Shown here: positions 34,755-38,040 of the stretch, one piece after another
Layout of the letters: every line of letters begins with the position of its first letter
Numbering within the stretch: the first letter of the stretch is position 1
Source: Gemmatimonadaceae bacterium
GTDB taxonomy: Bacteria; Gemmatimonadota; Gemmatimonadetes; Gemmatimonadales; Gemmatimonadaceae
Length of the DNA: 38,052 bases
Assembly (NCBI GenBank): GCA_025453745.1
Contig: JALOPS010000013.1
Location: forward strand, 1-38,052
Direction: 5' to 3'
Translations under genes and position numbers: made by a program
Notes under the pieces: generated by a model
Seen by the model: the letters and a program-made list of their open reading frames with translations, nothing else
What the model was told of the DNA's origin: nothing
Database searches by the model: none

Positions 34755-35513
34755 ATGTCATTCTCTTCCCGATTCTCCCCGGCACCTCTTGTCACCGTAG
34801 TGATGCTCGCTGGCGTCGTGACGGCGTGTTCGGATGCGCCGAGTGGGCCGAACATCACCTCGACCGGATCGACGCCGACCACGTCGGTCGTCGGCGAGAG
34901 AGCGGTGCCGGTCACTCGCGTGCCGCGCGGCAATCCGCGCGCGGTGCGCGACTCCCTGTTCGCCGAGTTCGCCAAGCGCCCCGACTTTGCCGACCAGTGT
35001 GGCCAGCTCCGTCAACTGCATTCCGGGTTGGCCGATCGATTTGGCTGTCCGGAATCGAGCGGCATTGCGCGACTGCCGCATCTCTACACGGACGAAGAGA
35101 TCGAGGCGCAGCTCGCGGAGATCGCAGCGCAAACCGACGAGATGATGGCCGCGATCGACGCCGCGTGGGCTGAAGCCGACAACGGTGCGTCGCTGACGGC
35201 GCTGCAGAGCCAGCAACAGCCGCCGACACCTCCGACACCTCCGACACCGCCGAACGCGCCGCCGCCGCCGCAGTCTCCTCCCCGCGACTGTCATCGAGAG
35301 CGGGGTGATGCGTGGGGGGCGAGCGCGGCAGCGGCGGGCGACGCGTGGTTGGTCGGCGCCGGTATCGTGCGAAAGGATCCGCCCTCGGCGTGGCAGTCGC
35401 TGACGCGGTTGATCAGTTCGAGCGGCCCACGAGCGATTGGCGCCATCATCACCTACGTGGGCTGCACTCGTGACGGCGGTGGCGAGCCCAACGATCCCCG
35501 TCGCCCTCGATAG
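34755..35513 (+). CDS. Four-cysteine exported lipoprotein, copy 1, with proline-rich insert
   Basis: A 252-residue lipoprotein: signal peptide and lipobox VVTAC (C25). No known family recognised. After a low-complexity Thr/Ser-rich spacer come RDSLFAEFAKRPDFADQC (C82) and C98, then an acidic helix (YTDEEIEAQLAEIAAQTDEMMAAIDAAWAEAD). A proline-rich insert follows, encoded partly by three 9-base repeats of CCGACACCT type (35223-35249), then C179 and C237 in IITYVGC. A related gene lies at 36025 with identical spacing (C-x15-C and C-x57-C). This suggests two disulfides in the periplasm or on the cell surface. GGAGGG stands 4 bases before the ATG. Function unknown; adhesion, binding or an inhibitor role cannot be separated from sequence. 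Confidence 0.75.
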   Translation: MSFSSRFSPAPLVTVVMLAGVVTACSDAPSGPNITSTGSTPTTSVVGERAVPVTRVPRGNPRAVRDSLFAEFAKRPDFADQCGQLRQLHSGLADRFGCPESSGIARLPHLYTDEEIEAQLAEIAAQTDEMMAAIDAAWAEADNGASLTALQSQQQPPTPPTPPTPPNAPPPPQSPPRDCHRERGDAWGASAAAAGDAWLVGAGIVRKDPPSAWQSLTRLISSSGPRAIGAIITYVGCTRDGGGEPNDPRRPR

Positions 35514-35537
35514 CGCCGTGTTCGTTGACGGCACACA

Positions 35538-35568
35538 CGGCGGGAGCACCACGCTGGTGCTCCCGCCG
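35538..35568 (+). terminator. Strong terminator-like hairpin after lipoprotein copy 1
   Basis: A perfect 14-base stem (35538-35551 with 35555-35568) around a CGC loop, 24 bases after the lipoprotein stop. It is the best hairpin in the window. Only a weak T-rich stretch follows, so Rho-independent efficiency is uncertain. It is 26 bases before the next gene's start. Confidence 0.7.
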
Positions 35569-35594
35569 CAGTCTCGTTCCCCCAGCCTGCCAAT

Positions 35595-35858
35595 ATGTCC
35601 GCTGAATACTTCTTGGCCGTCGGACTGCTCATCGCCGTCGCGGGGATGATCCTCTGGGCCGTGTTCGCGGTGGCCAAGCTCGAGCACGACACGTCGGGAG
35701 GCTCACCGCGCGATCGCCTGTTGAACGCTGCCTTGGTCGTGACGAGCTCCGCCGCGCTCTTCTTCGGCGCGATGAGCTGGCCTCGCGCCACCACCGCGTG
35801 CGTCGCGCTCACCGTCGTGGTCGCGCTGGTGCGCTACAGCGGTCGCCGTGCGCGTTGA
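35595..35858 (+). CDS. Small membrane protein, unknown
   Basis: An 87-residue protein with hydrophobic segments at about 5-27, 44-60 and 66-80. A charged loop (KLEHDTSGGSPRDR) lies between the first and second, and the tail RYSGRRAR is basic. I do not recognise a family. The ATG at 35595 follows directly after the strong hairpin. It sits between the two four-cysteine lipoprotein genes and may be functionally linked to them, but there is no direct evidence. A small protein with several helices might be a subunit or regulator. Confidence 0.6.
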   Translation: MSAEYFLAVGLLIAVAGMILWAVFAVAKLEHDTSGGSPRDRLLNAALVVTSSAALFFGAMSWPRATTACVALTVVVALVRYSGRRAR

Positions 35859-35969
35859 TCGTCGCTCCAACGAAGTGGCGCGCGCTCCGCATGATGCGCT
35901 GCCGCGTGCTCCCACGCTTGGCCGCGTGCGAAAACGATGAAGGGATTCTGCGGCGGCGCCTGCACTGTC

Positions 35970-36005
35970 GGTGACATCACCGCCACAACGGACGGTGATC
36001 TCACC
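35970..36005. promoter_or_regulatory. Tandem dyads upstream of lipoprotein copy 2
   Basis: Two 12-base dyads of the form GGTGA-NN-TCACC (35970-35981 with CA, 35994-36005 with TC in the middle), centre-to-centre 24 bases. They end 19 bases before the ATG at 36025. Repeated symmetric sites suggest binding of a dimeric regulator on the promoter or leader. Confidence 0.45.
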
Positions 36006-36024
36006 TCCGTCACAGAGGCGCTCC

Positions 36025-36714
36025 ATGTCGTATCTCCTCGCTCGTCTCTCGCACGCCATGCTGGTCGCGCTGGCGTGCACCGTCTCCGCCTGCGACCGCT
36101 CGTTCACCGCACCGGACACGGATCACGCCGTCGCCGCGACCACTCGCACCGTTCGTACGCCCGATGACGCCGGTGACGGTCGCACCGCACCGCCGTCGGA
36201 CCGACTCAGCATGGGTCGGCTCCTCCGTACGCAGCCCGACTTCCCCGCGTTCTGTGCCACTCTCCCGCGCGTGTCCACGCGCTTTGCCGCCGCCATCGGC
36301 TGCGATGTGCTCGCGCATGCGCCCACGCTCGTCAGCGACGAGGATGATGAAATCCTCGCCGCGATCGCCGCGGAGGGTGACGCGCTGCTGTGGGAGGTCG
36401 ACAACGCGTGGAACGGTGGGGGCGCGCTCCGCCTGCCCGCGGAGGAGCTCCCGTCGACGCTCATCTTCCCGCCGGAGTTCTGCGATGTGCTCCACGGCGC
36501 CCGTCTGACCAGCGCGACCGGTGAAGTGGCCCGCCGCGGCGCCACACTCGGCGACGCCATCGCACGCCGTAACGTGATGCTCGCCCAAGGCGCGCTGAGT
36601 TCGCTCGGTACGGCTGTCCCGCCAGCCGTCGAAATCATCACGACCTACGTGCGGTGCAAGGACTGGCTGGACGGTTGGGGCTGGGGCCGCAACACCACGC
36701 TTCCTGCCCCCTGA
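36025..36714 (+). CDS. Four-cysteine exported lipoprotein, copy 2
   Basis: A 229-residue lipoprotein: signal peptide with lipobox VSAC (C23). It is a diverged relative of the gene at 34755: LLRTQPDFPAFC (C77) and C93 with C-x15-C, then acidic DEDDEILAAIAAEGDALLWEVDNAW. PPEFC (C153) and C211 (C-x57-C) in IITTYVRC complete the pattern. It lacks the proline-rich insert of copy 1 and ends in a Trp/Gly-rich tail (DWLDGWGWGRN). AGAGG lies about 7 bases before the ATG. Identical cysteine spacing in two proteins of low overall identity argues for a common fold with two disulfides. Function unknown. Confidence 0.75.
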   Translation: MSYLLARLSHAMLVALACTVSACDRSFTAPDTDHAVAATTRTVRTPDDAGDGRTAPPSDRLSMGRLLRTQPDFPAFCATLPRVSTRFAAAIGCDVLAHAPTLVSDEDDEILAAIAAEGDALLWEVDNAWNGGGALRLPAEELPSTLIFPPEFCDVLHGARLTSATGEVARRGATLGDAIARRNVMLAQGALSSLGTAVPPAVEIITTYVRCKDWLDGWGWGRNTTLPAP

Positions 36715-36793: not shown

Positions 36794-37030
36794 TCACCCG
36801 ATGTCCGACGAACCGCCGCTCTCTCCTGCGTCGTCGCGCGACACCTCGGGCGCGTCATCGACCGCATCGGCGCCGCGCACGCTCACCGGTCGCCCGACCC
36901 CCGCCAACGCCCGCCGCAGCACGAACTCGATCTGCCCGTTGAGGCTGCGCAAATCGTCGTTCGCCCAGCGCTGCATCGCCTCGAGCACGGCTCGATCGAC
37001 GCGCAAGAGAAACGGCTTGCGCTCAGCCAT
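36794..37030 (-). CDS. Small ribbon-helix-helix (Arc-like) protein
   Basis: A 78-residue protein. The N-terminal AERKPFLLRVDRAVLEAMQRWANDDLRSLNGQIEFVLRRAL (2-42) matches the Arc/MetJ type ribbon-helix-helix: a short beta strand (PFLLRVD), then two helices with the conserved N-G-Q-I-E-F/LRR segment. The last 30 residues are acidic and probably disordered. GGAGGG lies about 8 bases before the ATG at 37030. It follows the SPFH gene on the same strand by 96 bases, an arrangement seen in other genomes. It may regulate the SPFH gene or be a partner protein; the DNA target is unknown. Confidence 0.8.
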   Translation of the reverse strand: MAERKPFLLRVDRAVLEAMQRWANDDLRSLNGQIEFVLRRALAGVGRPVSVRGADAVDDAPEVSRDDAGESGGSSDIG

Positions 37031-37077
37031 CGCGGCGACCCTCCGCCGCGAGACTGCGCGCCACCTGCGACGCGCCC

Positions 37078-37110
37078 GACGGATGCGGTGCGCACGGCAC
37101 CCCATCCGTC
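37078..37110 (-). terminator. Stem-loop between SPFH and RHH genes
   Basis: An 8-base stem (GACGGATG 37078-37085 with CATCCGTC 37103-37110), a single C/C internal mismatch, then a 5-base stem (37087-37091 with 37097-37101) and a 5-base loop. It starts 16 bases after the SPFH stop on the minus strand. It could attenuate transcription into the RHH gene or mark an mRNA end. Confidence 0.6.
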
Positions 37111-37126
37111 AGGCCCTGCAGCGCCA

Positions 37127-37996
37127 TCACTGGTAGATCGACCCCGTGTTCACCACCGGCTGCGCGGCACGATCGGAGCAGAGCACCACCAGCAGGTTGC
37201 TCACCATCGCCGCCCGCCGGTCGCCGTCGAACTCCACGATCCGCTTGGCGGTGAGCTGGTCGAGCGCGCTCTCCACCATCCCCACCGCGCCATCGACGAT
37301 CGTCTGTCGGGCCGCCACGATCGCACTCGCCTGCTGCCGCTGCAGCATCGCCGCCGCGATCTCCGGCGCATACGCCAGATGCGAGATGCGCGACTCGATG
37401 ACTTCCACCCCCGCCTTCGCGAACCGCTCGTGCAGCGCCTCGCTCAGCCCCTTCGAGATCTCCGCCGTGTGCGTCGAGAGCGAGATCTCGCCGGTGCGGT
37501 GCGCATCGTAGGGATAGCTCGACGCGAGCGTGCGCAGCGCCGCCTCGCTCTGCATGTGCACGTACTTCTCGTAGTCGTCCACCTCGAAGAGCGCTTCGAC
37601 CGTGTCGATCACCTTCCAGACCACGATCGCGCCGATCTCGACGGGATTGGCATGGGCGTCGTTCACCTTGAGCTTGGTCGTCTCGAAGTTCCGCACCTTG
37701 AGCGAGACGGCCTTCTTCGTATAGAACGGGTTGGCGTACCAGAGCCCGGGCGCGCGCGCGGTCCCCACGTATTTGCCGAACAGGGTGAGCGCCTTGCCTT
37801 CATTGGGATGGACGATGAAGAAGCCGCCCAGCAGCACACTCAGGAGCCCCACACCGAGGAGGATCAGGACGCCGATCCCGTCGCGGTCGGCACGAAAGGC
37901 GGTGATGGCCGCTGCCAGGAGCGCGAGCAGCGCGAGCGGCAGGACCGCGAGCATGAGGTAACCGGACGAACCACGGAATTCGGTGTCGCGAAGCAT
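37127..37996 (-). CDS. SPFH (band 7) domain membrane protein
   Basis: A 289-residue membrane protein. Two hydrophobic helices lie at about 13-35 and 41-61. The SPFH/band 7 domain then runs from about 62 ([71 protein letters not shown]), through [26 protein letters not shown], to [34 protein letters not shown] near 215-245. Such proteins organise membrane microdomains and regulate proteases or channels. The ATG at 37996 has AGGAGA about 10 bases upstream; an earlier ATG at 38035 adds 13 residues but has no ribosome binding site. A promoter or operator candidate lies just upstream. Confidence 0.9.
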
Positions 37997-38022
37997 CGGG
38001 ATCAGTTCTCCTGTTAGGTATC

Positions 38023-38040
38023 GCAATGATATCACTTCGC
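38023..38040 (-). promoter_or_regulatory. AT-richer imperfect palindrome upstream of the SPFH gene
   Basis: Centred on TGATATCA (38027-38034), with partial symmetry over about 18 bases. It lies 27-44 bases before the SPFH start codon and is much AT-richer than the surroundings. It could be a -10 region or an operator. Confidence 0.3.

Follow-up and report, generated by a model that had tools for sequence, protein, structure and literature searches.

Two diverged predicted lipoproteins with a common cysteine framework in a Gemmatimonadaceae genome

Near one end of the window, by which we mean the whole stretch of 38,052 nucleotides of Gemmatimonadaceae DNA that was analysed, lie two open reading frames that a first-pass annotation read as diverged lipoproteins with exactly spaced cysteines and as a possible new family. 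The locus thus raises the question of whether the shared spacing marks a genuine pair of related proteins and, if so, what kind of proteins these are. The features concerned are as follows.

34755..35513, plus strand: copy 1 lipoprotein, 252 aa; predicted lipobox VTAC (C25), cysteines 82/98 and 179/237, Ser at +2
35223..35285, plus strand: proline-rich stretch inserted in copy 1 in the interval from Cys 98 to Cys 179, the first half made up of a 9-bp tandem repeat
35538..35568, no strand assigned: near-perfect hairpin between copy 1 and the small ORF, with a stem of ~14 bp and a 3-nt loop
35595..35858, plus strand: small ORF, 87 aa, with at least two hydrophobic stretches and no clear ribosome site
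36025..36714, plus strand: copy 2 lipoprotein, 229 aa; predicted lipobox VSAC (C23), cysteines 77/93 and 153/211, Asp at +2

Two predicted lipoprotein genes and their surroundings

Read by eye, both copies satisfy the lipobox pattern [LVI][ASTVI][GAS]C, with VTAC at residues 22-25 of copy 1 and VSAC at residues 20-23 of copy 2, and in each a basic residue and a hydrophobic stretch come before the lipobox. With such good lipoboxes, both proteins are predicted to be bacterial lipoproteins lipidated at the lipobox cysteine, and the two signal sequences support the earlier placement of the domain outside the cytoplasm. A ribosome-site-like GGAGG lies immediately 5' of the copy 1 start, and a GAGG lies 5' of that of copy 2, for which we take ATG 36025 as the start; GTG 35971 is the less likely candidate, since it would place 18 further residues ahead of the signal peptide.

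The two proteins align by BLASTP over 230 columns at 28% identity (54.3 bits, E=2e-13), and once the signal sequences were removed none of 1000 shuffles reached the local alignment score. Similarity of this degree points to an old duplication rather than a chance match in spacing. Together with the ribosome-site-like sequences, the GC3 values (0.75 for copy 1, 0.82 for copy 2) and the two lipoboxes, it supports the reading of both ORFs as real coding genes. That one or both are not genes, and that their match is an effect of composition, might be argued from the high GC content of this DNA, in which long antisense ORFs occur, and from the GC3 of copy 1, which is below that of the nearby Band 7 gene (0.88); however, such an effect would have to produce protein homology unmatched by any shuffle in two frames that each carry a lipobox and a ribosome-site-like sequence, and we regard this as highly improbable.

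Upstream, the pair is flanked by a divergent gene for a hybrid PAS histidine kinase that includes a receiver domain; downstream, a short ORF and the gene for a Band 7 (SPFH) protein converge on it. The latter two occupy 36794-38035 of the minus strand, the Band 7 gene (37127-38035) coming first and the short ORF after it; by eye the short ORF looks like a ribbon-helix-helix DNA-binding protein, and it has no Pfam match. Between the copies, the hairpin at 35538-35568 has a fold of -33.2 kcal/mol (z -5.5). It is terminator-like and has no T run, which explains its absence from a consensus terminator scan, and transcription of copy 1 may stop here. The small ORF beyond the hairpin had been suggested as a membrane protein whose co-occurrence with the lipoproteins was worth checking. 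This link found no support: among 45 related genomes the small ORF gave only marginal matches (E 0.003-0.007), none of them convincing. Lacking a clear ribosome site and following a very strong hairpin after copy 1, it is probably not an operon partner of the copies. A dispersed short repeat was also observed at 35902-35960, in the gap that separates the small ORF from copy 2; its core of ~18-25 bp, GCG-x-GAAAACGATGAAGG, occurs about six times in the genome, spread over several contigs, and the reversed control contains no copy.

Cysteine framework and probable disulfide pairing

Copy 1 has cysteines at residues 25, 82, 98, 179 and 237, and copy 2 at residues 18, 23, 77, 93, 153 and 211. The positions and spacings first reported are exact in both: the mature chains share C-x15-C (C1-C2) and C-x57-C (C3-C4). 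All four cysteines besides the lipid-bearing one are thus kept against a background of ~28% identity, a conservation seen in two sequences of one genome that represent one divergence, and so an effective sample of one. Random placement of four cysteines would give both spacings with p about 2e-4, a figure to be read in the light of the homology of the copies, which makes a common spacing partly expected. There is no net insertion or deletion within either pair; the ungapped C1-C2 stretch is more similar between the copies than in all 20,000 shuffles, and the ungapped C3-C4 stretch reaches p=0.004 by the same approach. Of the sequence anchors described around these cysteines, PDF-x3-C and PP-x2-C were given correctly, while the IITYV-x-C at the fourth was slightly off, the copies reading AIITYVGC (copy 1) and IITTYVRC (copy 2); in register, this anchor is I-[IT]-T-Y-V-x-C.

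The interval between the pairs behaves differently, with 80 residues from C2 to C3 in copy 1 versus 59 in copy 2. The Pro-rich insert of copy 1 falls here, between the two cysteine pairs and not between the lipid anchor and the domain, and the 9-base tandem repeat said to underlie it is real (CCGACACCT, 3.4 copies, 35223-35253). What has been lengthened would therefore be a linker between subdomains, which argues for pairing of C1 with C2 and of C3 with C4. Since spacing is fixed within the pairs and the C2-C3 interval both varies and carries the insert, we favour two disulfides in separate loops as the plausible arrangement, to judge from these sequence features.

AlphaFold2 models built from two-row alignments were all-helical and of low confidence (pLDDT 40.9 and 40.8, pTM 0.28 and 0.20). 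Helix order was identical in both copies, and in both, at a pLDDT of 41, C1 lay within one helix and C2 immediately behind the following one, an arrangement resembling a helical hairpin that is only suggestive in models of this quality. Alternatively, in place of two loops the four cysteines could make up a single interlaced core (C1-C3/C2-C4 or C1-C4/C2-C3) or a metal site. All four are indeed conserved jointly, and the models, at pLDDT 41, are too poor to discriminate between pairings. However, length is constant within the pairs and not between them, a Pro-rich insert between C2 and C3 would be more easily tolerated by separately folding halves, and the proteins have neither a metal-binding cysteine motif nor a family match. 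We therefore consider an interlaced core or metal site unlikely, and retain the two separate loops as the preferred arrangement.

Database and genome searches

Taking as a family match a score over the curated cut-off or an E below 0.001, neither lipoprotein matched a family in Pfam, NCBIfam, PHROGs or PADLOC, and a search of PDB sequences returned nothing above chance; the description of the domain as one without a known name is borne out in these collections. The sole PADLOC hit (E=0.03) fell on a Pro/Ala-rich stretch and was set aside as being at chance level. A thioredoxin-like oxidoreductase and a heme c site were likewise rejected, as neither copy contains a CxxC or a CxxCH; the closest two cysteines in either mature chain, the lipid-bearing one included, are at least 15 residues apart.

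Single-protein searches of 59 related genomes returned the queries themselves and weak matches at chance level. Profile searches gave only weak partial matches in 395 genomes of the phylum and in 179 of the same family, a sample of 35 genera. None of the retrieved loci showed the four-cysteine pattern; one of them had cleared the loose filter only through an unrelated frame. No relative emerged from two pattern scans of GTDB across 84,980 species, from a viral pattern scan or from plasmids. A DNA motif search of 177 genomes with one mismatch allowed recovered the two copies and two chance matches. The motif PDF-x3-C-x15-C occurred in ~50 places, a rate not far above that of the reversed control, and profile scoring of the retrieved loci yielded no relative; nor did the neighbourhood of the orthologous Band 7 gene in 13 relatives hold a counterpart of the lipoprotein pair. 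The reach of these searches can be gauged from copy 2, which as sole query did not recover copy 1 within its own genome, so relatives at or below ~28% identity would escape them. The genome's relatives and its gene content suggest Gemmatimonadota as the phylum. The genus is apparently represented by one genome, 81% complete, and closer relatives may fall outside the sample. With two paralogs in one genome only, the proposal of a new family is weak and premature; what stands is a real, unnamed pair, apparently lineage-restricted and ordinary in kind.

Local duplication with fast divergence is common in sets of immunity and interaction proteins, and the pair might act in this way at the envelope, for example in protection from a secreted toxin. 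The copies are tandem and diverged, their divergence is rapid and no relative was found in related genomes, all as such a role would predict. Against it, no toxin, secretion or defence gene adjoins them, their neighbours being the histidine kinase and the Band 7 protein, and the only PADLOC match is the chance-level one on the Pro/Ala-rich stretch. We judge an immunity role improbable.

Proposed architecture and comparison with known lipoproteins

The explanation that we prefer, and hold to be somewhat probable, is that an old local duplication created two disulfide-closed, helical envelope lipoproteins. Each copy would be exported by Sec and then lipidated at its lipobox cysteine, and a disordered N-terminal tether of ~40 residues would lead to a small domain, probably helical throughout. 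Two subdomains would make it up, each with a disulfide of its own, C1-C2 closing what is likely a helical hairpin and C3-C4 closing the longer loop. The linker between them would tolerate variation, and the slipped 9-bp repeat of copy 1 would have drawn it out there to a stiff spacer rich in Pro. As a guess from architecture, a role in structure or in ligand binding at the envelope, rather than in catalysis, would be the likeliest.

The residues at +2 differ (Cys-Ser in copy 1, Cys-Asp in copy 2), and the copies might therefore end in different membranes. Asp at +2 is described as a LolCDE avoidance signal in gram-negative bacteria (PMC5727369). By analogy the copies may be sorted to different membranes, which for the phylum of this host is a guess. 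A fuller proposition would make the pair a lipoprotein domain of a kind so far undescribed, helical and disulfide-stapled, built of two independent subdomains, with the copies sorted to different membranes; this seems to us doubtful.

If confirmed, the pair would add one more unnamed envelope domain and would offer a small natural case in which the cysteine framework of a protein outlasts its duplication while the linker grows through a slipped DNA repeat. In poorly studied phyla, lipoproteins that are specific to one lineage and lack homologs are a common find, and the wider importance is therefore low until a function or relatives come to light; the pair is one among many lineage-specific envelope proteins, and nothing found raises it above them. 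With bacterial lipoproteins in general, as substrates of signal peptidase II, the copies share a signal sequence, a lipobox and a predicted disordered tether after the lipid-bearing cysteine, whereas Pfam and NCBIfam contain no named lipoprotein family that their mature domain matches. With thioredoxin-like and cytochrome c envelope lipoproteins they have in common conserved cysteines outside the cytoplasm; unlike these, they are without CxxC, CxxCH or a family match, and their cysteines stand 15 and 57 residues apart.
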